From the NCBI RefSeq assembly GCF_023061185.1, contig NZ_JAKGAK010000019.1, positions 1 to 58,545 of the forward strand: 58,545 nucleotides of DNA, read 5' to 3'. Positions 7,957 to 19,875 of this stretch are shown here, piece after piece. The notes beneath the pieces were generated by a model. It was not told the DNA's origin, made no database searches, and worked only from the letters and a program-made list of their open reading frames with translations. Made by a program: the position numbers and the translations under genes. This stretch comes from Chromohalobacter beijerinckii (lineage in GTDB: Bacteria > Pseudomonadota > Gammaproteobacteria > Pseudomonadales > Halomonadaceae). Each line of letters starts with the position of its first letter. Positions within the stretch are counted from its first letter, which is position 1.

Positions 7957-9813
7957 ATGTGGCAAGGGCCCGAGGAAGGCAATGATGCCTTCGCTGACCC
8001 GCACGCCTGGCAACGTCAGGTGAGCGAGTTCGGTGAGCAATACCAATCCCTCATGCAGGAAGCCTTCAATCGGTTGTGGCCCAGCGACGCGGGTGCTTCG
8101 GTGTATGCCGACATGCAGGAGAGTCTGCGTATCGGCGCCGAGGCCATGGTTTTCAATGCGCCGGCGGTCTATACCGTGCAGATGCGTCTGGCGCAGGATC
8201 AACTGCGTGTCTGGCAGAATGCTCTGCGGGAGCTCATGGGCGAGAATGTACCTGCAGTGATCGAGCCGAGTCCCGAGGATCGACGCTTTCGCGATGATGC
8301 CTGGCACTCGCATCCCTTCTATCGCTATATCCTTCAGCAGTATTTGCTCTTCGTGCGTGCCGTCGACGAGTTGTTGGCGAATCTCGGCGGATTGACGCCC
8401 GAGACACGCCATCAACTGGAATTCTATGCGCGGCAGTACGTCAACGCACTGGCGCCGAGCAACTTCGTCTCCACCAATCCTGAAGTGGTCCGCAAGACTC
8501 TCGAAACACGAGGACAAAACCTCGTCGAGGGCCTCAAGCGTTTGCGCGAGGATCTGGCCAATTCCGCCGAGGGACTCAACGTCGCGATGAGCGACCGCAG
8601 CGCCTTTCGGTTGGGTGAGAACCTTGCCATCACACCGGGCGAGGTGGTCTTCGAAAACGATTTGATGCAACTGATTCAGTACAACCCGAGTACCGAGGAG
8701 GTCTTCAAGACGCCGCTGCTGATCGTGCCGCCCTGGATCAACAAGTATTACGTGCTCGACTTGCGCCCGGATAACTCGCTGGTGAAATGGCTAGTGGCGC
8801 AAGGGCATACGGTGTTCATGATCTCATGGCGCAACCCCGGGCCCGAGCAGCGTTACCTGACCTGGGCCGATTACATGCAGTCGGGGCCGGTCGCCGCCAT
8901 GGGCGCCATCGAGCAAGCCTGTGGTGAGAAATCCGTCAACCTGTTGAGTTACTGCATCGGCGGCACGCTGGCGGCGACCACGGTGGCGTATCTGACGAGT
9001 AGTCTGCGTGGTCGCAAGGTGCGTTCTGTGACCTACATGGCGACGCTGCAGGATTTCAGTGACCCCGGCGAGATTGGCGTGTTCCTCAGTGAGCCGGTGC
9101 TGGCGGGCATCGAACGTCAGCTAGCGCGTGACGGCTACCTCGATGGTCGTGCCATGGCGTTTTCCTTCAACCTGCTGCGCGAGAACGATCTTTTCTGGTC
9201 GTTCTATATCAGCAACTATCTCAAGGGCGAGGCGCCAGCGGCGTTCGATCTGCTGTATTGGAACAGCGACGGCACCAACCTGCCGGCGGGCACCCATGGT
9301 TGGTACCTGCGCCACATGTATCGCGAGAATCGTCTCGTCCAGCCCGGCGGCATAGAGCTCGATGGCGTCAAGATCGACCTACGGAAGATCTCGACACCGA
9401 GTTATTTCGTCTCCACGCGCGATGACCACATCGCCAAATGGCGAGGCAGCTATTTGGGAGCTCGACTGCCTAAGGGGCCGGTGACCTTCGTGCTGGGGGG
9501 CGCGGGGCATATCGCGGGAATCGTCAATCCACCGGCGAAACGCAAGTACGGCTACTGGACCCATGATGAGATCCCCGACGATCCCGATGCCTGGCTCGAG
9601 TCGGCGACGTTTCAGGAGGGATCCTGGTGGCCGCATTGGCAAGCCTGGATGACCGACAACCGCTATGCCGATCCCGACAAGACGGTCGCGGCGCGTCATC
9701 CGGGAGAGGGCGAACTGAAGCCCATCGAACCCGCCCCCGGCCGCTATGTGCGGCAGACGATTCCCGAGGTGTTGGGTGTTAAACCTGCTGAGGACGACAG
9801 CTCGTCGTCATGA
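7957..9813 (+). CDS. phaC: Class I poly(3-hydroxyalkanoate) synthase
   Basis: Polymerises (R)-3-hydroxyacyl-CoA into PHA at the granule surface. The 618-residue protein has the PhaC N-terminal domain (about 100-270) and an alpha/beta-hydrolase core. The triad is visible: Cys333 in SYCIGG, Asp490 in RDDHIAKW and His518 in GGAGHIAGIVNPP. The lipase-like box starts with Ser (S-Y-C-I-G) instead of the usual Gly, a variant I recall for halophile synthases. GGGGAG precedes ATG 7957. No phaA or phaB is near, so monomer supply is encoded elsewhere. It ends 13 bases before the converging regulator. Confidence 0.95.
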   Translation: MWQGPEEGNDAFADPHAWQRQVSEFGEQYQSLMQEAFNRLWPSDAGASVYADMQESLRIGAEAMVFNAPAVYTVQMRLAQDQLRVWQNALRELMGENVPAVIEPSPEDRRFRDDAWHSHPFYRYILQQYLLFVRAVDELLANLGGLTPETRHQLEFYARQYVNALAPSNFVSTNPEVVRKTLETRGQNLVEGLKRLREDLANSAEGLNVAMSDRSAFRLGENLAITPGEVVFENDLMQLIQYNPSTEEVFKTPLLIVPPWINKYYVLDLRPDNSLVKWLVAQGHTVFMISWRNPGPEQRYLTWADYMQSGPVAAMGAIEQACGEKSVNLLSYCIGGTLAATTVAYLTSSLRGRKVRSVTYMATLQDFSDPGEIGVFLSEPVLAGIERQLARDGYLDGRAMAFSFNLLRENDLFWSFYISNYLKGEAPAAFDLLYWNSDGTNLPAGTHGWYLRHMYRENRLVQPGGIELDGVKIDLRKISTPSYFVSTRDDHIAKWRGSYLGARLPKGPVTFVLGGAGHIAGIVNPPAKRKYGYWTHDEIPDDPDAWLESATFQEGSWWPHWQAWMTDNRYADPDKTVAARHPGEGELKPIEPAPGRYVRQTIPEVLGVKPAEDDSSSS

Positions 9814-9826
9814 TGGCTGAGTGCCC

Positions 9827-10840
9827 TCAGCGCTTGACGGGAAAGAGGCGCACCGGGACCACCGGTGCGTCTCGCGACTGCAGGCGGTCGTCGCTGGGCG
9901 CGCAGCCGAAGAAGCGCCGGTAGGCACGGGAGAAATGCTCCAGAGAGCCAAAACCGGCGCAACTGGCGACTTCTGCCACGCTCAGGTCGGTCTGCTGCAG
10001 CAGTCGATGCGCGCGATTGATGCGCAGCCAGAGATAATAACGAATCGGCGTGACGCCGAGTTCTGCCTTGAAGCGCCGTTCCAACTGGCGAGCCGAGAGC
10101 CCGACGAGGGCGGCTAGTGCCGGCGCCGAGAGCGGCGTTTCCAGGGTGCGTCGCATGGTGCGAATCACCTTGCGCAACTGCGCCGACGTCTCGACATGGT
10201 GTTCGGGCGCCGCCGACAACTGTTCGCTGTCGTCGCGACGCTGGCGGCGTTCCAGCAAGTGATTGCGCAACTCCTCCATGTAGGGCGGCTCCACACGTGG
10301 CGTGAGCCAGGCGAACATCATGTCGAGCACGGCGGTGCCTCCGGCGCAGCTCAGCCGCTGGCCCGCGATGCGATAGAGGTCGCTGGTGGCCTGGATGCGC
10401 GGATAAAGCTCGCGAAAGCCTTCCAAATTATCCCAGTGCACGGCCACCTGATGCTCGTCGAGCACGCCCGCCGCGGCCAGTACTTCGCTGCCCATCTCGA
10501 TGCCGCCCAACGCCACCCCGGCCGCCGCACACTGGCGAAGCCACATGGCGATACGCTTGTCGCCGGTATACGTCTTGGTCTCGAAACTGGCGAGGACGAA
10601 CACGCTGTCCAGATCGGCCGGTGCCGGCCACTCGGTGTCCACGTTCAGGGGGACGCCGTTGGAAGCGGCGACCGTGGTATCGCTGCCCAATAATTGCCAC
10701 TTGAAGCGCGGCTCTTGGGCCAGCCAGTTGATGATGAACAACGGATCCAGCATCGCCCCCAGACCGGCAAAGGAAAACTGCGGCATCAACAGGATCGCGA
10801 TGCGCTCTGGGGTTGGCGTTGTGCGCTGCGTATTAATCAC
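9827..10840 (-). CDS. GlxA family AraC-type regulator (DJ-1/PfpI domain plus HTH)
   Basis: A 337-residue regulator: residues about 12-190 form a DJ-1/PfpI-like domain (RIAILLMPQFSFAGL at its start), and about 230-325 an AraC double helix-turn-helix (ALVGLSARQLERRFKAELG; LSVAEVASCAGFGSLEHFSR). This architecture is shared with GbdR, CdhR and SouR of Pseudomonas, which activate glycine betaine, carnitine and sarcosine catabolism. Translation appears to begin at GTG 10840, inside the last codons of the aldolase gene (8-base overlap) without a clear ribosome-binding site, so it is probably coupled. As last gene of the catabolic operon it is the likely local activator. Confidence 0.88.
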   Translation of the reverse strand: MINTQRTTPTPERIAILLMPQFSFAGLGAMLDPLFIINWLAQEPRFKWQLLGSDTTVAASNGVPLNVDTEWPAPADLDSVFVLASFETKTYTGDKRIAMWLRQCAAAGVALGGIEMGSEVLAAAGVLDEHQVAVHWDNLEGFRELYPRIQATSDLYRIAGQRLSCAGGTAVLDMMFAWLTPRVEPPYMEELRNHLLERRQRRDDSEQLSAAPEHHVETSAQLRKVIRTMRRTLETPLSAPALAALVGLSARQLERRFKAELGVTPIRYYLWLRINRAHRLLQQTDLSVAEVASCAGFGSLEHFSRAYRRFFGCAPSDDRLQSRDAPVVPVRLFPVKR

Positions 10841-11568
10841 GATAGTCGGGGGCGTCGCGGTCGAGCAGGCGCATCAAGGCGGCAAGATGCATGTGCGCCG
10901 AGCCTTGCGTCAGATAGTCCTCCCATTGCTGGGCGGTCTTGCGCGCGACCTCGGGCGCGACGGGACGCACGGGAAGGCCGCTGGCACGGGCCACCAGATA
11001 GGAGCGGCAGGCGCGCTCGAAGTAATAGAGGTTGTCGAAGGCTTCGGCGACGTCGTGGCCGGTGGCGACCACGCCATGATTGCCGAGCAGGAGGATCGGC
11101 GCCGTGCCGGCCAACTGACCGAGGCGTTCCGCTTCTTCGTCGAGCCCCATGCCGTCGAACCCGGCATCGACATGCACTCGCTCGAAGAAGCGCATGGCGT
11201 TCTGTTCCACCGGGGGTAGCTCTGGCGTCTCCAGGCAGGCCAGGGCGGTGGCGTAGAGCGAGTGGGCATGCATCACGCATCCCACGCCGCGGCCCTGACG
11301 ATGCATGGCGCCGTGAATGGCCCAGGCGGTGGGATCGATGGATTCGGGACGTTGTGCGGCGCTGGCATCCACCTCGACGAGGTCGCTGGCACGCATTTCC
11401 GCGAAATGACGCCCTTCGGGGTTGACCAGAAAGCGCCGGCCGTCCGCCTGGGTGGCCAGGCTGCAGTGATTGGCGACGCCTTCGTGCATGTCGAGGCGGG
11501 CCAGCCAGCGGAACGCGCAGGCCAGTTGTTCGCGGGGGGGTACCGGGAAGCTCGGTAGCGGTCGTCAT
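10833..11568 (-). pseudogene. Class II aldolase/adducin family protein with a 1-base frameshift near its start
   Basis: The downstream frame (218 codons from an internal ATG at 11489) has the class II aldolase fold: metal-ligand histidines in VMHAHSLYATALA and the GNHGVVATG strand. The true start should be ATG 11568, which has AGGAG 6 bases upstream, but that frame departs from the aldolase frame at a run of seven C on the coding strand (G at 11534-11540). Removing one C joins them into a 244-residue protein whose N-terminus (REQLACAFRWLARLDMHEG) fits the family. The shift may be a sequencing error, a real null allele or a slippery tract. The substrate is unknown. Confidence 0.8.
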
Positions 11569-11603
11569 GTATCGCTCCTGTGGCGATGGCGAAACCGAGG
11601 CCA

Positions 11604-13103
11604 TCAATAGTGGATCCAGCGCGTCTTGAGCGCCATGTATTTGTGCATGCCGGCCAGCGCGTAGTCGCGGCCGATGCCGGATTGCTTCATGCCGCCGAAA
11701 GGCGTCTGCGGGCTGACGGCATCGACGCCATTGACCGTCACGGTGCCGGCCTGCAGGGCATCGCAAAGGCGATGGGCGCGTCCCAGGTCGGCGGTCCACA
11801 GGGACGCTGCCAAACCATACTGGCTGGCATTGGCCAATGTCACGCCCTGGTGCTCGTCGCTGAAGCACGTCACGCTGAGCACGGGACCGAAAATCTCCTC
11901 CTGGAAGAGCCGATGATGCGGTTCGACATCGGTGAATACCGTGGGGGCGACGAACAAGGCGCCGCCCGCCGCCTGCAGCGTCTCGCCGCCGCACAACAGC
12001 GTGGCCTCGCGCTTGCCGACCGCCAGATAGTCGCGAACCTTGTCGAACTGTGCCTGGCTGACGAGCGGGCCAAGCGTCGTCGCCGGATCGAGCGGGTCTC
12101 CCGGCACGAGCGTCGCGATACGTGCCTGCAGGGCCTCGAGGAAGCGCTCGGCGATGCCCTCTTGCAGCAACAGGCGCGAATGCGCCGAGCAGACCTGGCC
12201 GGCGTTGGTGAAGATACCGGCCACGGCGTTGTCCACGGCGGCCTCCAGATCGGGGCAATCGTCGAACACCAGATGCGGGCTCTTGCCGCCGCATTCCAGC
12301 CACACGGGTTTCATGTTGGATTCCCCCGAGTAGACCAGAAAGCGTTTGCCGATCTCGGTGGAGCCGGTGAAGCCGAGCGCGTCGACACCTGAATGCCGGC
12401 CCAGCGCTTCGCCGGCGACATGCCCGTATCCCGGCACGACATTGAGCACACCGGGCGGGAGGCCGGCCTGGGTCGCGAGTTCCGCCAGACGCAGCGCGGA
12501 AAGCGACGATTCCTCGGCGGGCTTGAGCACCACGCTGTTGCCGGCGGCCAGCGCGGGCGCCAGTTTCACCGCCGCGTTATGCAGGGGAAAGTTCCACGGG
12601 ACCACGGCGGCAACGACGCCGAGAGGCTCGTGGGCCACCGTGGCCTGTACGTTATTGGGGCTGGGCGCGAGCTGGTCGTAGCATTTGTCCTGGAGCTCGC
12701 CGAACCAGTCGAAGAGCAGGGCCGCTTCCTCGACGTCGTCCAGGGCTTCGTGAATGCACTTGCCGACCTCCAGACTGTCGAGCAGGGCCAGTTCCTCGGC
12801 GTGGTCGCGCACCTGAGCGGCGAGCGCCTGCAGGCATCGGCGGCGTGTCGTCGGCTCGGCACGTGACCAGGCACCGAGCTCGAACGCGCGGCGTGCCGCG
12901 TCGACCGCGACATCGATATCCTCTGGGCCGCAGGCCGTGATATCTGCCAGCGACGTGCCCGTCATGGGGTTGATCGACGCGAGCGATTCACCCTGGCGCG
13001 TCATATAACGGTGACCGTCGATGTAGGCCGCGCCATCCAGCGAGAGGGCGGCGGAACGGTGTTGCCAGTCGGCGTGGGTGGTGGGTAGGGGAGAGGAAGA
13101 CAT
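11604..13103 (-). CDS. NAD(P)-dependent aldehyde dehydrogenase
   Basis: A 499-residue ALDH superfamily enzyme oxidising an aldehyde to its acid. Visible features: cofactor-binding PWNFPLHNAAVKLAPALAAG, FTGSTEIGK, general base Glu270 in WLECGGKSPH, and nucleophile Cys305 in NAGQVCSAHSR. It resembles the PuuC/BetB-like group that acts on amino- or betaine-aldehydes. ATG 13103 follows the reductase gene after 50 bases, and the next gene follows after 35. In this operon it would take the aldehyde made by the GMC oxidoreductase or released by the Rieske oxygenase; which of the two is not evident. Confidence 0.92.
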   Translation of the reverse strand: MSSSPLPTTHADWQHRSAALSLDGAAYIDGHRYMTRQGESLASINPMTGTSLADITACGPEDIDVAVDAARRAFELGAWSRAEPTTRRRCLQALAAQVRDHAEELALLDSLEVGKCIHEALDDVEEAALLFDWFGELQDKCYDQLAPSPNNVQATVAHEPLGVVAAVVPWNFPLHNAAVKLAPALAAGNSVVLKPAEESSLSALRLAELATQAGLPPGVLNVVPGYGHVAGEALGRHSGVDALGFTGSTEIGKRFLVYSGESNMKPVWLECGGKSPHLVFDDCPDLEAAVDNAVAGIFTNAGQVCSAHSRLLLQEGIAERFLEALQARIATLVPGDPLDPATTLGPLVSQAQFDKVRDYLAVGKREATLLCGGETLQAAGGALFVAPTVFTDVEPHHRLFQEEIFGPVLSVTCFSDEHQGVTLANASQYGLAASLWTADLGRAHRLCDALQAGTVTVNGVDAVSPQTPFGGMKQSGIGRDYALAGMHKYMALKTRWIHY

Positions 13104-13153
13104 AACGTACCTTGGCGATTGTTGAATGGGCGTGGAAAGCGCTCGCGCCGACC

Positions 13154-14107
13154 TTACAGGTCGAGCACCAGGCGTTCCCCCTTGGGACGCGAAACGCAGA
13201 CGTAAATGATGTCGTTGGCGGCTTTTTCGGCATCGGACTGAAGAACGTCGCGATGCTCGACCTCGCCTTCGAGCACGGGGATGCCGCAGGTGCCGCAGGC
13301 GCCTTCGCAACACAGGCTGTCCGGCGCCGCGCCGGCGCGCGCGAGGCCGTCGAGCAGGGTTTCGTCCTCGGCGAGCGTGAACTGCATGTCGCTGCGTGCG
13401 AGCTCGATCCGGCAAGGCGTGGTACGCGCTGCCGGCGCTTGCGATGCGCCGCGGAAGCGTTCCATTTGCAGTGCGCCCGGGGGCCACGCCTGTGCCGCGT
13501 CGGTCAAGGCGCCCAGCAGGCTTTCGGGGCCGCAGGCATAGACCCCGGTCTCCGGCGCGTAGTTGCCCAGCAGCGCTCGCGGTGCGAGCCTTCCCTGCGT
13601 GGCGGAGGCGTGCAGGTGCAACTGCGATGCGGGCAGGAACGCGCGTAGTTCGTCGAGGAACGCCGCCTCGTCCCGGTGGCGCACCAGGTAATGCACCTCG
13701 ACCGTATCGCCCCGCTCGACGAGTCGGCGCGCCATGGCGACGAGCGGCGTGATGCCGATCCCGCCTCCGATCAGCCGGTAGTGCTGCCGGTCGTCGGCGA
13801 GAGGGAAGCGATCCTGGGGCTCAGAGACGCGCAGCCGTGTGCCGATACCGGCCTGTTCAGCCAGGAAGGCGGATCCCCCGCGCGAGGCCGGATCATGCAG
13901 CACGCCGATGCGATAGCGACCGTGACGCGCGTCGTCCAGCAGCGAATAGTGACGTACCAGGCCATTGGGAAGGTGCACCTCGAGATGGGCACCCGCCGGG
14001 GCCGGCGGCAGGGCGTCGCCATCGGCGGCGGCCAACTCGATCTGGTAGATAGCGCTCGATAGCCGCTGGTGGCTCTCGATCACGACGTCGAATGGCGTCG
14101 CGGTCAT
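13154..14107 (-). CDS. Oxygenase reductase with FMN/NAD and 2Fe-2S domains (PDR/VanB, CntB/GbcB-like)
   Basis: A 317-residue electron-transfer protein. The flavin-binding segment includes RHYSLLDD (near residue 55) and [14 protein letters not shown] (near 115) with the NAD-binding YACGPESLL; the C-terminal plant-type ferredoxin domain has ligands C-x4-C-x2-C in CCEGACGTC and a final Cys in YVCVSRPKG. This layout is that of phthalate dioxygenase reductase and of CntB/YeaX and GbcB, the NADH-dependent partners of quaternary-amine Rieske oxygenases. It almost certainly feeds electrons to the oxygenase encoded at the start of this operon. It starts 12 bases after the GMC gene. Confidence 0.92.
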
Positions 14108-14119
14108 GGCATGTCCTCC

Positions 14120-15784
14120 TCAACGTTGCTGGTGTTGCCAGTCGTCATGCAGCCAGAAGGGAGCATCCGAGGGCGCCGGCGGCGCATGGCCGAGGATCAT
14201 GTCGCTGGCCTTTTCGGCGATCATGACGGTCGGCGCATTGGTATTGCCGCTGACCACGCGGGGCATGATCGAGGCATCGACCACACGCAGACCATTGATG
14301 CCATGCACACGAAGCTCGGGGTCGACCACGGCTTCCGGGTCGTCGGCTGGGCCCATCTTGCAGGTGCCGGCGGCGTGATAGCCGGTTTCGGTGGTAGCGC
14401 GCGCCCAGGCATCCAGTGCCTCGTCGCTCTGGCAGTCGGCACCGGGGGAAATTTCCTCGCCCCGCAAATCCGCGAATGCCGGCTGCTCGACCAGTTCCCT
14501 GACGCGACGCACGGCCGCGCGCATGTCGGCGCGATCGCGCTCGGTGGCCAGGTAGTTGAAGACGATCTCCGGCGCTCGTGCGGGGTCCGCGCTCCTGAGG
14601 CGCACGCGGCCCATGCTCGTGGGGCGCATCAAGTCGATGTGCACCTGGAACGCATGCTCGCGCAGGCTTTCGGTGGTGCCGGGCGCGATGGCCAGAGACA
14701 TGAACGTCAACTGAATGTCGGGATGCTCGACCCCCGCCCGCGAGCGGATGAAGGCGCCGGCGTCGAACTGGTTGCTCGCCGCGAGGCCGCGCCGGTCGAG
14801 GAACCAGCGCATGCCCAGCCACCACTTGCGGGGGGCGTAGGTCCAAGGCGCATGCGAAACCGGCTGGCGGCAGCGGTACGCCACCACGGTATCCGGGTGG
14901 TCGCTGAGGCGGCGGCCCACGCCCTCGAGCGTATGCACGCGAGGAATGCCGCAGCGGGTCAGTTCGTCGTCGGGGCCGATGCCGGAGATCATCAACAACT
15001 GGGGGCTGTTGATGGCGCCGCCCGCCAGGATGACCTCGCGGGTGGCGCGTGCCCGGTGCAGAGTGTCGGCGTGGCGATATTCGATGCCTTCGGCACCGGT
15101 CTCGCCGATCAGCACGCGCTGGGCCAGTGCGTGGGTGACGACTGTCAGGTTGGCGCGCTTTTCGGCGCGCGCCAGGTAGCCACGCGCCGTGCTCCAGCGC
15201 CTGCCCGCGCGCGTCGTGCGATCGACACGACCGAAGCCTTCCTGACGATAGCCGTTGAGGTCGTCGCTGGCGGCATAGCTGGCTTCCTCCCCGGCGGCCA
15301 GGAAGGCTTTCGCCAGGGGATCCTCGGGGCGCCCGGCACTGACATGCAGCGGCCCCGTCTCGCCATGGTAGGCATCGGCCCCCAGTTCGTGGGTTTCAGC
15401 ACGGCGAAAGTAGGGCAGGACGTGCCGGTAACCCCAGCCGGGACAGCCGGCGTCTTCCCAGACATCGTAATCGCGGGCATGACCGCGGATGTACACCATG
15501 CCGTTGATCGACGACGAGCCGCCTAGCGTGCGCCCGCGCGGCGTGGCAATGTGCCGTCCGTCGAGGTAGGGCTCGGGCCCCGACCAATAGTGCCAGTTGA
15601 AGCGTGGTCCATCGATGGCCGCCCCCATGGCGGCCGGCATGTCGATGGTCCATGAGCGATCGCGGGGGCCGGCTTCGAGCAGCAGCACCCGGGATTCGCC
15701 ATCGGCGGTGAGCCGGTCGGCCAGCACGCAGCCGGCCGATCCTGCCCCGACGATGATGTAGTCGTAATCTCGATGAGTCGTCAT
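14120..15784 (-). CDS. GMC family oxidoreductase, choline dehydrogenase (BetA)-like
   Basis: A 554-residue FAD enzyme. The Rossmann motif [18 protein letters not shown] is at residues 8-25, the GMC signature [19 protein letters not shown] near 80-98, and the C-terminal active-site region [12 protein letters not shown] and [13 protein letters not shown]. Overall it tracks BetA, which oxidises choline to betaine aldehyde, but differs at the usual HPSCTCKMG motif and is linked to a Rieske system rather than to betB/betI. I infer an alcohol dehydrogenase for a choline-like compound. ATG 15784 has AGGA 7 bases upstream; the frame extends to 15817 but overlaps the previous gene. Confidence 0.9.
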
Positions 15785-15813
15785 GCAAGCATCCTGAGGC
15801 GAAGGGCGAGAGT

Positions 15814-16773
15814 TCAACGCGAGGCCTGGTAGGCGTCTTGTGCACTCGTATTACCATCCGCGGTGGTCACGCCCTCGAGCCAGGCGTTGACCCGCTCGGG
15901 ATGCGACTGGATCCAGGTCGCGGCGACCGCTTCCAGCGGCTGGTCCTCGCGGCTGTAGGCGTAGACCCACTGGTCCTGGACGGCGATGGGCACGACCATG
16001 TTGTCGAGAAAGGCGATGACGTTGGGGTGGCGCTCGGCGAAGTCGCTGGCGACCACCGTGGACACCGAGCTGGCGTCGCCCCAGAGGTTCTCGGGGTCCT
16101 CCAGGTAGCGAATGTCGAAGTCGACGTTCATCCAATGCGGTTCCCAGCCCAGGAAGGCGACCCATTGCTCGTTACGGATGTCGCTTTCGACCTGCGACAT
16201 CATGCCGGTCTCGCTGGACGCGGCGACCCGCCAGTCATCCAGGCCGTAGGTGCCGTCATCGATGGCGTTCTGCATCAATTCGTTGCCGACGTTGCCCGGC
16301 TCGATGCCATAAAAGGTGCGGCCGAAGCGTTCCGCGTGCTCGGCGAGATCGGCCATCGAGTGCACACCGGCGTCCCAGACGTATTCGGGCACCGCGAGCT
16401 GAAAGCGCGCGCCGTCGATGTTCTTGACGACTTCGACCAGCTCGCCGGCTTCCAGGCGAGGATCGAGCATGCCGCTTTGCGACGGCCGCCAGAGCGCCAT
16501 GTTGACGTCGAGATCGCCGCTCGCCATGCCTTCCAGGATGATCGACGAGCTGGCTTCCCGCAGCGAGGTGCGATAGCCGAGCGTGTCCAGCAGTTGTCGC
16601 GCCACTTCCGACTTGACGGTGGCGCCGGGCCATTGCGGCGTGCCGAAGCGGACCGTGTCGTCCTCGGCCTGGGCGAGCCCGAAAGGCGCGAGCAGTAGCG
16701 CGCCCATGGCGCCGCCGAGCAACGTGGACGTCAAGCGGCCCAGCGGGGTGCGGTGTCGGGGGATAGCGGTCAT
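15814..16773 (-). CDS. ABC transporter substrate-binding protein, glycine betaine/choline type (OpuAC family)
   Basis: A 319-residue periplasmic protein with a signal peptide (basic start, hydrophobic LLGGAMGALLLAPFGLAQA, cleavage before EDD). The mature part carries OpuAC-family features: VRFGTPQWPGATVKSEVA, aromatic box residues in MALWRPSQS and FLGWEPHWMN, and the C-terminal WIQSHPERVNAWL. Such proteins bind quaternary ammonium compounds in a cage of Trp/Tyr rings. No permease or ATPase gene is nearby, so like CaiX and BetX of Pseudomonas it probably docks on a shared transporter elsewhere. It is co-directional with the oxidative genes and suggests the imported substrate. Confidence 0.9.
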   Translation of the reverse strand: MTAIPRHRTPLGRLTSTLLGGAMGALLLAPFGLAQAEDDTVRFGTPQWPGATVKSEVARQLLDTLGYRTSLREASSSIILEGMASGDLDVNMALWRPSQSGMLDPRLEAGELVEVVKNIDGARFQLAVPEYVWDAGVHSMADLAEHAERFGRTFYGIEPGNVGNELMQNAIDDGTYGLDDWRVAASSETGMMSQVESDIRNEQWVAFLGWEPHWMNVDFDIRYLEDPENLWGDASSVSTVVASDFAERHPNVIAFLDNMVVPIAVQDQWVYAYSREDQPLEAVAATWIQSHPERVNAWLEGVTTADGNTSAQDAYQASR

Positions 16774-16839
16774 GGGAGTCTCCTCGTGATGTGTTGTCGT
16801 TGTGTTGCCGTCAGGTGCGGCGAGCGGGCCTGCGCGAGC

Positions 16840-17607
16840 TCAAAAGCCGCACACGCCGCCACCGTCGACGGACAGGATGGCGCCATGGGTGAAACCGGCC
16901 TGGGGAGAGGCGAGATAGAGCACGGCATCGGCGATCTCTTGCGGTTTTCCCATGCGTTGCAGGGGCGCTCGTCGATGGGCCGCGTCCAGGTAGGCGTGTG
17001 GCTCGCCGCTGGCCTCGGCGGCGTGCTGGATCATGTCGGTCTCGACATTGCCCGGGCACACGCAGTTGATCCGTATGCGGCCGGCCAGCTCCAGGGCCAG
17101 GGCGCGGGTCAGGTTGACCACGGCGGCCTTGGCACCGGAGTAGACGCTGCTCGGTGGGAAGCCGATCAGGCCGGCATCCGAACCCAGGTTGACGACGTTG
17201 CCGCCACTGGCCTCCAGGTGCGGTAGCGCCGCCTGGAGGCAGAAGAAGGTGCCGCCCACGTTGACGCGGAACGTGCTGTCCCAGTGTTCCTGCGTGACCG
17301 CTTCGAAGGGCACTTCCTCGAAGACGCCGGCGCAATTGACCAGGATGTCGAGCCCACCGAGGCGCGCGACGGCAGTTTCCACGACCGCCCGGCACTCGGC
17401 CTGGGTGCCGATCTCGCCCACGGCGGATTCCACCGTGGCCGAGGCAAGCTCGGTATTCGCCAGCGAATCGCGGAACGCCTCGACGGAGGCCTCTCGGCGC
17501 GCGCCGATGGCGACGCGCGCCCCCTGTTCCAGAAAGCGCCGTGCCGTGGCGGCGCCGATACCGCGGGCGCCGCCGGTCACCAGCACGCGTTGACCGGTGA
17601 ATGTCAT
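16840..17607 (-). CDS. SDR family oxidoreductase
   Basis: A 255-residue classical short-chain dehydrogenase: cofactor motif TGGARGIG at residues 12-19, NCAG near 90, catalytic Ser and Tyr-x3-Lys in SSVYSGAKAAVVNLTRALA near 150-170, and a C-terminal DGG. Arg/Ala residues after the second strand (IGARRE) leave NAD versus NADP preference open. Its start codon overlaps the stop of the Rieske gene by four bases (ATGA), implying translational coupling. It probably oxidises or reduces a hydroxyl/keto intermediate in the pathway; the exact substrate cannot be deduced. Confidence 0.9.
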   Translation of the reverse strand: MTFTGQRVLVTGGARGIGAATARRFLEQGARVAIGARREASVEAFRDSLANTELASATVESAVGEIGTQAECRAVVETAVARLGGLDILVNCAGVFEEVPFEAVTQEHWDSTFRVNVGGTFFCLQAALPHLEASGGNVVNLGSDAGLIGFPPSSVYSGAKAAVVNLTRALALELAGRIRINCVCPGNVETDMIQHAAEASGEPHAYLDAAHRRAPLQRMGKPQEIADAVLYLASPQAGFTHGAILSVDGGGVCGF

Positions 17608-18770
17608 GACGGCGCCTCCTGGGGCGTGCTGGCGTCACCGTGCAAGGCCTGGAACACCAGGCGGTGAAAGTGCAGCACCAGGTGCTCGCTTTCGTTGCTG
17701 CGTGCGGCATCGATCATGTAACGGCCTTGGTCGTAGCCCAGCGAGTGCAGGCCTTTCTGCACGCTGATGTTGAGCTCGATGTCCTCGGGGCCGAGTTCTT
17801 CGTTCATCCAGCGCATGCTGGCCTTGGTGACTTCCGGCAGCGTGTCGTGCGGGGTGTAATACCCGAAGCGCAGAATCGAACGCTCGGCATCCAGCGGGAT
17901 GATCATGAACGTGCCCATGCACTGCGAGAACGGGAACTGGTAGAAGGTGTTGTGCGGCCAGATGCCGATGTTGAAAAAGCCGTCGCCGTTGCCGGGCGGG
18001 CGATCCAGCGACACGCCGTAAGCCTGCTTGGCATCGGCATTGGGCGGCGCGCCGTAGGTCCACCAGTTGTCGTGATGGGTCAGGCGGTAGCCATCGAAGT
18101 CGATCAGGGCGGCCAGGTCGACGTGGTGGGGCCCCGAAAGCTGGAAGTGATAGCCCTCGATGGAGTTGTCCATGATCACTTTCCAGTTGGCCGGGACGAT
18201 GACGTCGTCTTCCTGGATCAACTGCATGGCGTCCAGATCCGGAATCGCCTCGCGTATGGCGGCCTCGGCACCGGGGAAGAGTGTCTGCATGTCGGTGGCG
18301 TTGGGATCGAGATTGAAGTAGACGCCCCCCGCGAAGACTTCCAGGCGCACCGGCGGAATGTGGTAATCATCGACATTGAAGGCCGCGATCCGGTCGCTGC
18401 GAGGTGCGGCGCGTAGGCTGCCGTCCAGCCCGTAGCACCAGGAATGATAGGCACAGCGGATGACGCCTTTCTGAACGCCGCGCGTCTCGTTGAGTAGACG
18501 GTTGCCACGGTGCTGGCAGACGTTATGAAAGGCATGCAACTCGCCTTGGCGGTCACGTATCACGATGACGCTCTGATCGAAGATCTCACGCACCACGAAG
18601 GCGCCGGGCTCGGCCAGCTCGTTGACATGACAGGCGAAATGCCAGGCACTCATGAAGATGCGGTCACGTTCGGCGGCAAACAGTTGTGGGTCGTAGAAAT
18701 AACGGGACGGAAGAGTCAGTGCCTTTTCCGCGGGCTGCTCCGCCCACGCTTGGGGAGTCGTGTCGGTCAT
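17604..18770 (-). CDS. Rieske non-haem iron oxygenase, CntA/YeaW-like (quaternary amine type)
   Basis: A 388-residue oxygenase alpha subunit. The Rieske 2Fe-2S ligands are C-x-H and C-x2-H in NVCQHRGNRL and CAYHSWCYG; the mononuclear iron site is in NWKVIMDNSIEGYHFQLS followed by GPHH. Segments such as VCQHRG, LDPNATDMQTLFPG and PEDIELNISVQKGLHSLGY closely resemble CntA/YeaW, which cleave carnitine or gamma-butyrobetaine, rather than aromatic-ring dioxygenases. ATG 18770 was preferred to 18782 (GAGG upstream). It heads an eight-gene operon; the 211 bases upstream to the LysR stop hold no promoter I can name with confidence. Confidence 0.9.
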   Translation of the reverse strand: MTDTTPQAWAEQPAEKALTLPSRYFYDPQLFAAERDRIFMSAWHFACHVNELAEPGAFVVREIFDQSVIVIRDRQGELHAFHNVCQHRGNRLLNETRGVQKGVIRCAYHSWCYGLDGSLRAAPRSDRIAAFNVDDYHIPPVRLEVFAGGVYFNLDPNATDMQTLFPGAEAAIREAIPDLDAMQLIQEDDVIVPANWKVIMDNSIEGYHFQLSGPHHVDLAALIDFDGYRLTHHDNWWTYGAPPNADAKQAYGVSLDRPPGNGDGFFNIGIWPHNTFYQFPFSQCMGTFMIIPLDAERSILRFGYYTPHDTLPEVTKASMRWMNEELGPEDIELNISVQKGLHSLGYDQGRYMIDAARSNESEHLVLHFHRLVFQALHGDASTPQEAPS

Positions 18771-18981
18771 GTCCTGCCTCATGCAAGCGGTTTGTGTCGT
18801 TGGTCTGGCACAAGGCTAAGGCGGCGCCGAACAGCTCACATGATGTTTTCTGACACGACGTGGCGGACCGATTGATAATAAACGGCGTTTTTGCGTCGCT
18901 ATAGATCAAATAAGAGTGACGAAAAAAGGCGAACCGCCTGGCTATCTTGCGGATGGTCTTGATCTTTCACGACATGGGGTT

Positions 18982-19875
18982 TCACGACCAGCCTCGGGCC
19001 GTCGTGTCCCGGGCGTCGTCGAGCATACCTAGCATAGCCCTGGCGGCATTGGAGAGAGTACGGCTCTTGTGGAACAGGTATCCCAGCGGACGCTGGATGG
19101 GACGATGATCGATGGGCATGACCTCGATCTCGTCGTCGATCATGGTCTCGGGCAATACGCTCCAGCCCAGGCCGATGGCGACCATCATCTTGAGGGTTTC
19201 GAGGTAGTTGGTGGATAGCGAGACGTTCACTTGCAGGCCGTCGCGGGCGAAGGTGTCCACCACGATGCCCCGGGTGAAGGTCAGATGCCCCGGCAGCACG
19301 GCGTCGTAATCGGACAGTGCCGACAGGGCGACCGTGTCGCGTCCGGCGAGGGCGTGCTCGCGTCCGCAGACGAAGCGCAGCTGGTCGATCCACACCGGCA
19401 CCACCGTCAGCGCAGGATCGGGGACCGGGGCCAGCGTGACCACGGCGAGCTCCAGGTCGCCGTCCAGCACGCCTTGGTAGGCTTGTTCCGAGTCCAGGAA
19501 GCGCATGTCCATGCGGACGTCGGGATGCGCCTGAGTATAGGCCTTGAGCAGCGGTGGCAGACGGTGTAGGCCGACATGATGGCTGGTGGCCATGGTCAGG
19601 CTGCCGCTGACGTCGCCGCTGAGGTTGGAAAGCGCGCGGCGGCTGTCGTCGAACATCACCAAAATCTGGCGGGCACGCGGCAGCAGGGTGTGACCGGCCT
19701 CGGTAAGCGTCACGCGGCGGTTGAGTCGGTCGAAGAGCTGCGCGCCGACTTGCCCCTCGAGGCCCGCGATGCGCTTGCTGACGGCGGGCTGTGTCAGGTG
19801 GAGCTGCTCCGCGGCGAGCGAGAACGAGCCGTGATCGGCGACCGCGAGGAAGGCTTGCAGGCTTTGCGTATCCAT
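18982..19875 (-). CDS. LysR family regulator divergent from leuC
   Basis: A 297-residue LysR-type regulator with an N-terminal winged helix (LQAFLAVADHGSFSLAAEQLHLTQPAVSKRIAGLE) and a periplasmic-binding-like effector domain. It is divergent from leuC, the same arrangement as the uncharacterised LysR gene beside leuC in Pseudomonas, so control of leucine synthesis genes is inferred. Alternatively it could regulate the Rieske operon, which lies downstream in the same direction. A palindrome 29 bases upstream of its start overlaps the likely promoter. Confidence 0.9.
   Translation of the reverse strand: MDTQSLQAFLAVADHGSFSLAAEQLHLTQPAVSKRIAGLEGQVGAQLFDRLNRRVTLTEAGHTLLPRARQILVMFDDSRRALSNLSGDVSGSLTMATSHHVGLHRLPPLLKAYTQAHPDVRMDMRFLDSEQAYQGVLDGDLELAVVTLAPVPDPALTVVPVWIDQLRFVCGREHALAGRDTVALSALSDYDAVLPGHLTFTRGIVVDTFARDGLQVNVSLSTNYLETLKMMVAIGLGWSVLPETMIDDEIEVMPIDHRPIQRPLGYLFHKSRTLSNAARAMLGMLDDARDTTARGWS

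Follow-up and report, generated by a model that had tools for sequence, protein, structure and literature searches.

An eight-gene operon of Chromohalobacter beijerinckii putatively devoted to breakdown of a choline-like quaternary ammonium compound

Which compound is broken down by an operon that joins a Rieske oxygenase to a choline-dehydrogenase-type GMC oxidoreductase, in a genome that carries separate genes for choline and glycine betaine? The operon in question comprises eight co-directional genes at positions 9827–18770 (minus strand) of a 58,545-nucleotide stretch of Chromohalobacter beijerinckii DNA (contig NZ_JAKGAK010000019.1, positions 1 to 58,545; hereafter the window), and lies on contig C11 of the 3.34 Mb, 60-contig assembly. 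On balance, and with modest confidence, we favour the reading that its genes are induced for the breakdown of a quaternary ammonium alcohol resembling choline, or of the betaine derived from it, the substrate being none of choline, glycine betaine, carnitine or stachydrine. The enzyme superfamilies concerned are already known; the novelty lies in the Rieske branch and in a gene combination without an assigned pathway. Among the matches listed in the open-licence PMC literature, judged by titles and the starts of abstracts, we recognised no description of this gene set, a weak negative.

The operon itself is real, as the window's open reading frames and domain calls confirm. All eight genes named by the original prediction were found, with Pfam domains in agreement. 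From the upstream end, these are the Rieske oxygenase (17604–18770, 388 amino acids; Rieske and Ring_hydroxyl_A), an accessory short-chain dehydrogenase/reductase (SDR; 16840–17607, 255 amino acids), an OpuAC-type substrate-binding protein (SBP; 15814–16773, 319 amino acids; OpuAC), the GMC oxidoreductase (14120–15784, 554 amino acids; GMC), a 2Fe-2S reductase presumed to partner the Rieske protein (13154–14107, 317 amino acids; Fer2 reductase), an aldehyde dehydrogenase (ALDH; 11604–13103, 499 amino acids; Aldedh), a class II aldolase-fold protein (10833–11568; Aldolase_II) and a GbdR-like AraC-family regulator (9827–10840, 337 amino acids; HTH_18). Running from the Rieske gene to the regulator, the gaps are −4, 66, 29, 12, 50, 35 and −8 bases, so that the predicted spacing (66 bases or less, with two overlaps) is right when the aldolase-like gene is started at 11568, as in its relatives; starting it at 11489, as in the listed reading frame, gives a gap of 114 bases instead.

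For comparison we used 77 loci carrying a Rieske relative at 54–99% identity, drawn from the best 80 of 101 confirmed hits and found with six peptide patterns taken from the window's Rieske protein; some of these loci end early at contig ends. The gene set was sought in other Halomonadaceae, which contribute 17 of the 77 loci: order and strand are kept in all 17, which places the gene set beyond chance, and all eight genes are present in 16 (the SDR likewise in 16). At the Aidingimonas halophila locus (L008, 10000–11600), whose Rieske protein is 89% identical, there is no SDR match and the SBP frame is shortened. Across the whole sample the Rieske gene (77/77) is accompanied by the GMC gene in 75 loci, the regulator in 74 and the aldolase-like gene in 72. 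The remaining 60 loci, mostly from Pseudomonas and Burkholderiaceae, often differ in gene order or orientation; within the stretches fetched they hold the GMC gene in 58 cases, the regulator in 57 and the aldolase-like gene in 55, with a reductase relative at 38% identity or more in only seven. These counts define a core of Rieske oxygenase, GMC oxidoreductase, aldolase-like protein and regulator.

The Rieske protein departs from the known systems compared here. Its best solved relative is CntA (34% identity, with 36% to YeaW), and it shares with CntAB and YeaWX, the group Va enzymes, the pairing of an oxygenase with a 2Fe-2S reductase. The bridging Glu205 and the His208/His213/Asp323 triad (CntA numbering) are kept in the window and in 77/77 relatives, as expected of the inter-subunit transfer type. 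The pocket was aligned against CntA, YeaW, this genome's GbcA and the Sinorhizobium meliloti Rieske protein encoded next to stc4, which was taken from its context as Stc2. CntA residues Tyr203, Cys206, Cys209, Asn270, Tyr295, Tyr315 and Phe319 are replaced by Ser, Gly, Phe, Tyr, Phe, Met and Leu, respectively, in every one of the 77 relatives, and five of the seven CntA substrate-pocket residues are changed throughout; Tyr225 and Phe258 of that pocket are kept in all 77, the column at 258 being less surely aligned (other clades shifted there between two alignments). One search pattern, WMNEELGP, spans positions 315 and 319, whose conservation is therefore partly selected; positions 203, 206, 209, 270 and 295 fall in none of the patterns. 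According to the group V literature, position 203 is the π–cation residue dividing the group into Va (Tyr/Phe) and Vb (Asn) (PMC7948474), and a Cys pair at 206/209 is noted for the group as a whole (PMC10952381). With Ser at 203 and Gly and Phe in place of the Cys pair, the family fits neither Va nor Vb; GbcAB and Stc2 have in common with it Rieske chemistry and the triad, whereas the GbcA model scores the window's protein at 139.7 bits against a cut-off of 670.

This separation is also seen in a quick maximum-likelihood tree, in which 25 of the 48 rows belong to the family (the window plus 24 of the 77, picked for spread), with OxyBAC and choline monooxygenases left out. All family rows fall on one side of a branch with full support (100 in the Shimodaira–Hasegawa-like approximate likelihood-ratio test), the carnitine clade of CntA and YeaW forms a separate group (100), and the family also stands apart from a BKACE-linked clade and from GbcA/Stc2. 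The window's protein thus nests in none of the sampled characterised clades; several non-family rows are long-branched, which leaves the deeper order unsure. The label "CntA/YeaW-like" accordingly holds for fold and nearest solved structure and not for the pocket. Three loci (L100, L102, L103) carry a separate Rieske clade with Phe203; its neighbours are GlxA regulators, a BKACE-type cleavage protein, an ALDH, an SDR and HCDH-like genes, which probably make up a betaine route in their own right. Two distant gammaproteobacterial Rieske proteins (L119, L121) pair together and have Gly206, as in the window's family, with the aromatic 203 kept.

The GMC oxidoreductase and ALDH together recall BetA/BetB, and here too the likeness stops short of identity. 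The GMC protein scores 759 bits against the 605-bit cut-off of the PRK02106 choline dehydrogenase subfamily, and at the head-group position an acidic residue, which we take to contact the choline head group by analogy with choline oxidase, is found in 75/75 proteins. It reaches 665.5 bits against the 732.1 of the BetA equivalog model TIGR01810, is 47–48% identical to two BetA proteins (47% to that of Escherichia coli), and in a tree two BetA rows separate from the family's 20 sampled rows with support of 99, or of 84 if a third GMC, on a long branch, is included. The ALDH (searched without its first two residues) is nearest PuuC/KauB and reaches 464 bits against the 668.6 of the betaine-aldehyde dehydrogenase model TIGR01804, and the operon has no BetI. 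Recognised versions of these enzymes are encoded elsewhere in the same genome: contig 1 carries a ChoX-like SBP, BetI, BetB and BetA, and contig 12 carries GbcA and GbcB, all above their cut-offs. These separate gene sets, together with the Rieske clade, uphold the earlier claim that the operon matches none of the known choline, betaine or carnitine routes.

The regulator and the control region also fit quaternary-amine metabolism. GbdR is the best NCBIfam match of the regulator (residues 8–323), at 236.6 bits against the 480-bit cut-off of NF052371; in Pfam it matches HTH_18, the GlxA/GATase part having no hit. A motif, GTCRN6MTCA, occurs in the 250 bases preceding the Rieske start in 70/77 loci, against 1.1 loci expected from shuffles (which preserve base composition only) or 2.0 matches expected from the background rate over the same loci; a version with a 5-base spacer occurs in none of the 77. 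The seven loci without it are L022, L067, L068, L070, L072, L073 and L076, among them three of the four most distant. In the window, the proximal copy, a candidate regulator site, lies at 18841–18854 (minus strand), 84 bases upstream of the Rieske start, with a distal copy at 18960–18973 (minus) and a third at 18895–18908 on the opposite (plus) strand. The short motif occurs 17 times across the whole window against 8.4 expected, so that single matches mean little and the conserved place constitutes the evidence. Its longer form gave 24 matches over the genome at two mismatches or fewer, against five for the reversed pattern, and the only exact match was the window site. Published work places the Pseudomonas gbc genes under GbdR-type control. 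The CdhR half-site is reported as GGTCGC, similar to those of GbdR, SouR and ArgR, two half-sites being set 15 bp apart (PMC5806209).

The binding protein resembles ChoX at some positions. At the ChoX aromatic-box positions the window's SBP has Trp, Trp, Phe and Trp, and the ChoX Asp, presumably at the position of the choline hydroxyl, is replaced by Gly; Gly is found here in 16/16 Halomonadaceae and Asp in 31/31 of the other loci with an SBP. The window's protein scores 274.9 bits against the 379.05 of the ChoX model TIGR03414, whereas both non-Halomonadaceae SBPs scanned (L034 and L097, the latter on a plasmid) pass the choline-binding model. The genome holds at least 12 OpuAC-type binding-protein genes; of the ten compared with the window's SBP, five carry the same WPG motif as that protein in the first binding loop, in contrast to the Asp of choline-type proteins. 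The operon encodes neither a permease nor an ATPase, the rest of the genome not having been searched for a permease; Pseudomonas CbcWV gives a precedent for permease sharing (PMC12442406).

The remaining gene product, predicted to be a class II aldolase, requires revision. It scores 329.8 bits against the 260 of the PRK07490 model NF005689 ("hypothetical protein"), and three His residues at the metal positions are kept in 72/72 proteins, but the position of the FucA catalytic Glu73 is Ala in all 72, which sets it apart from FucA-type class II aldolases. The copy in C. canadensis, which is intact, was modelled with AlphaFold2 (mean predicted local distance difference test score of 86), and a fold search placed the model nearest, among PDB entries, to NovR, the uncharacterised 3ocr and TqaM, followed by the fuculose aldolase 4xxf and pyruvic oxime dioxygenase (POD), with a decarboxylase, adducins and more fuculose aldolases as further matches. 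Identity to the NovR/TqaM/POD group is 20–30%, and this modelled likeness is one of fold only. The PDB entries for NovR and for one TqaM describe non-haem iron enzymes, and the title of a cited reference does the same for POD, as a nonheme Fe(II)-dependent enzyme. We therefore consider that the protein more probably oxidises or decarboxylates a small acid with the help of Fe(II) than catalyses aldol cleavage, which we set aside as the default on account of the Glu73 replacement and the nearest folds; the class II aldolase fold stands, an ordinary aldolase step being doubtful.

Taken together, these features suggest how the operon might work. The binding protein would capture the compound and deliver it through a permease encoded elsewhere; the GMC oxidoreductase and ALDH would oxidise the alcohol to the aldehyde and then the acid; the Rieske oxygenase and its reductase would hydroxylate the carbon next to the nitrogen, such that a methyl group is removed or the amine split off; the NovR-like metal enzyme, joined in Halomonadaceae by the SDR, would process the small acid left over; and the GbdR-like regulator would sense substrate or product and turn the operon on via the conserved upstream site. 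We infer the substrate, the order of the steps and the Rieske reaction from sequence comparison. A quaternary alcohol fits the GMC protein, the GbdR-like regulator and the choline-type SBPs near the Pseudomonas and Burkholderia versions, in keeping with the predicted hydroxylated betaine or choline analogue metabolised by a new route, if not with its aldolase step. Candidate analogues might include homocholine and the trimethylhomoserine head group of betaine lipids. A route parallel to, and distinct from, choline, betaine and carnitine breakdown is the most economical account.

Several observations weigh against this reading. The π–cation Tyr203 of CntA is Ser in all 77 relatives, so that the Rieske protein itself is only a putative binder of quaternary amines. 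Among the 60 loci outside the Halomonadaceae, an SBP match is found in just 31 and an ALDH match in just 25, and at 32–38% and 28–44% identity to the window's proteins, respectively, they are too distant for orthology, which we rejected; the two versions may consequently act on different compounds. The motif was fixed after inspection of 31 of the 77 loci (it occurs in 40 of the 46 not inspected beforehand), and the resemblance of its first half to the CdhR GGTCGC covers a single half-site of the 15-bp-spaced pair. Of 369 genomes drawn evenly from the class, only the window's own has a close relative, making this a rare Rieske family. Finally, the aldolase-like gene is frameshifted in the window: a run of seven C at 11534–11540 breaks the frame read from 11568 (the listed frame starts at 11489), at a site where the frame is open in 5/5 close relatives, and the break may be a true mutation or a sequencing error.

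We next weigh the operon as a redundant choline/glycine betaine route, with parallel enzymes under a different regulator. The choline-model scores of both scanned Pseudomonas/Burkholderia-version SBPs, the ChoX Asp kept throughout the SBPs of that version and the choline dehydrogenase subfamily of the GMC protein all speak for it, yet the genome already has betIBA with a ChoX-like SBP as well as gbcAB, the Halomonadaceae SBPs uniformly have Gly for that Asp, the GMC protein stands apart from BetA and the Rieske pocket is unlike that of GbcA; we therefore consider this unlikely, though deserving of some weight. Slightly less probable is a substrate that is not a quaternary amine at all, such as a tertiary or N-methyl amine, a sulfonium compound (for example an analogue of dimethylsulfoniopropionate) or another osmolyte. 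Ser203 and the lost Cys pair do distinguish the Rieske protein from group V, and OpuAC-fold proteins also take sulfonium osmolytes, but the aromatic positions of the SBP, the GbdR-like regulator, the half-site-like motif and the choline-type SBPs of the other version speak against it.

The distribution of the genes bears on whether the pathway still works in this strain. The Rieske gene is patchy in the family of the window (19/250 genomes, and 7/10 in its genus), and in the class survey 11/369 genomes match the protein at 1e-40, with the pocket signature in none of the 13 matches listed outside the window's own genome (30–37% identical). A close aldolase-like gene accompanies the Rieske gene in all 19 family genomes, and eight further family genomes match it, three at 81–95% (G394, G409, G410) and five at 46–47%. 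In two of these, from the same genus (G410, L155 3716–4429; G394, L156 5311–6009), the aldolase-like gene lies between phaC and LysR–leuC, where none of the other seven operon genes is present; in G410 it is interrupted by an internal stop, and in G444 none of the eight genes was found at the corresponding site. This pattern looks like piecemeal loss of the operon. It would be compatible with any of the substrates above that the operon is decaying in this strain and no longer forms a working pathway, as the frameshift, the patchiness and the three Rieske-less genomes with a retained aldolase-like gene might suggest; we regard this as improbable, given that the other seven frames are open and a homopolymer break may be a sequencing error. 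A variant carnitine/γ-butyrobetaine pathway of CntAB/YeaWX type is very improbable, for although CntA is the best solved relative and Tyr225 and (less surely) Phe258 are kept, the pocket and clade differ as described, and the operon has different partner genes, lacking both the genes for tartrate dehydrogenase and BCCT seen at two CntA-type loci and those for BKACE and HCDH-like proteins seen at three loci of a related clade. The Pseudomonas cdhR–caiX carnitine operon similarly has an OpuAC-type SBP gene, a GATase–AraC regulator and a half-site resembling the window motif; its chemistry, which we take to be that of carnitine dehydrogenase, differs from an operon with Rieske and GMC genes.

The operon is flanked by two further genes. 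On one side lies a convergent gene read as phaC (7957–9813); on the other is a LysR regulator (18982–19875, minus strand), which we rejected as the operon's regulator and placed outside it, since it has a match in 245/250 family genomes against 19/250 for the Rieske gene. LysR and leuC are each present at 16 of the 17 Halomonadaceae loci, and LysR adjoins leuC in three genomes lacking the operon. A terminator-like hairpin with a T run (18927–18939, minus strand) follows LysR and precedes the operon, a weak feature, as the scan counted six sites of this kind in the region and 5.5 in shuffled sequence. Among 30 selected proteins from six non-Halomonadaceae loci (L020, L026, L036, L062, L071, L073), no shared neighbour gave a clue to the substrate. 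On the Pseudomonas aeruginosa plasmid pF045_1, from a cystic fibrosis isolate (L097, 13959–21302), recombinase genes flank both sides of a set comprising Rieske, GMC, regulator, aldolase-like, ALDH and choline-type SBP genes; the SBP scores 471.7 bits on the choline-binding model (cut-off 379), and the best model of the ALDH is betaine-aldehyde dehydrogenase, below cut-off (596.9 against 668.6). Isochorismatase-family hydrolase genes lie near the Rieske set on this plasmid (13233–13493) and in Caballeronia (L026, 9194–9946). Among the other loci fetched, L046 and L050 at least carry relatives of the Caballeronia gene; such an enzyme may be an amidase that supplies the pathway, or its presence may be coincidence.

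Quaternary amines rank among the major osmolytes and membrane head groups, and whether they are demethylated or release trimethylamine is decided by Rieske enzymes. In both gamma- and betaproteobacteria, a taxonomically scattered Rieske branch keeps a pocket that is invariant yet unlike those compared here, along with one type of regulator site and a single GMC partner. This suggests that its members share a natural substrate, and we found no pathway assigned to it. More tentatively, this branch could represent a third quaternary-amine Rieske subgroup, with an invariant pocket that would hold its cation in the absence of the known aromatic, acting alongside an aldolase-fold Fe(II) enzyme in an unknown choline-analogue route of halophiles and soil pseudomonads. 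The NovR/TqaM-like protein, commonly annotated "aldolase", is now placed in a catabolic operon.

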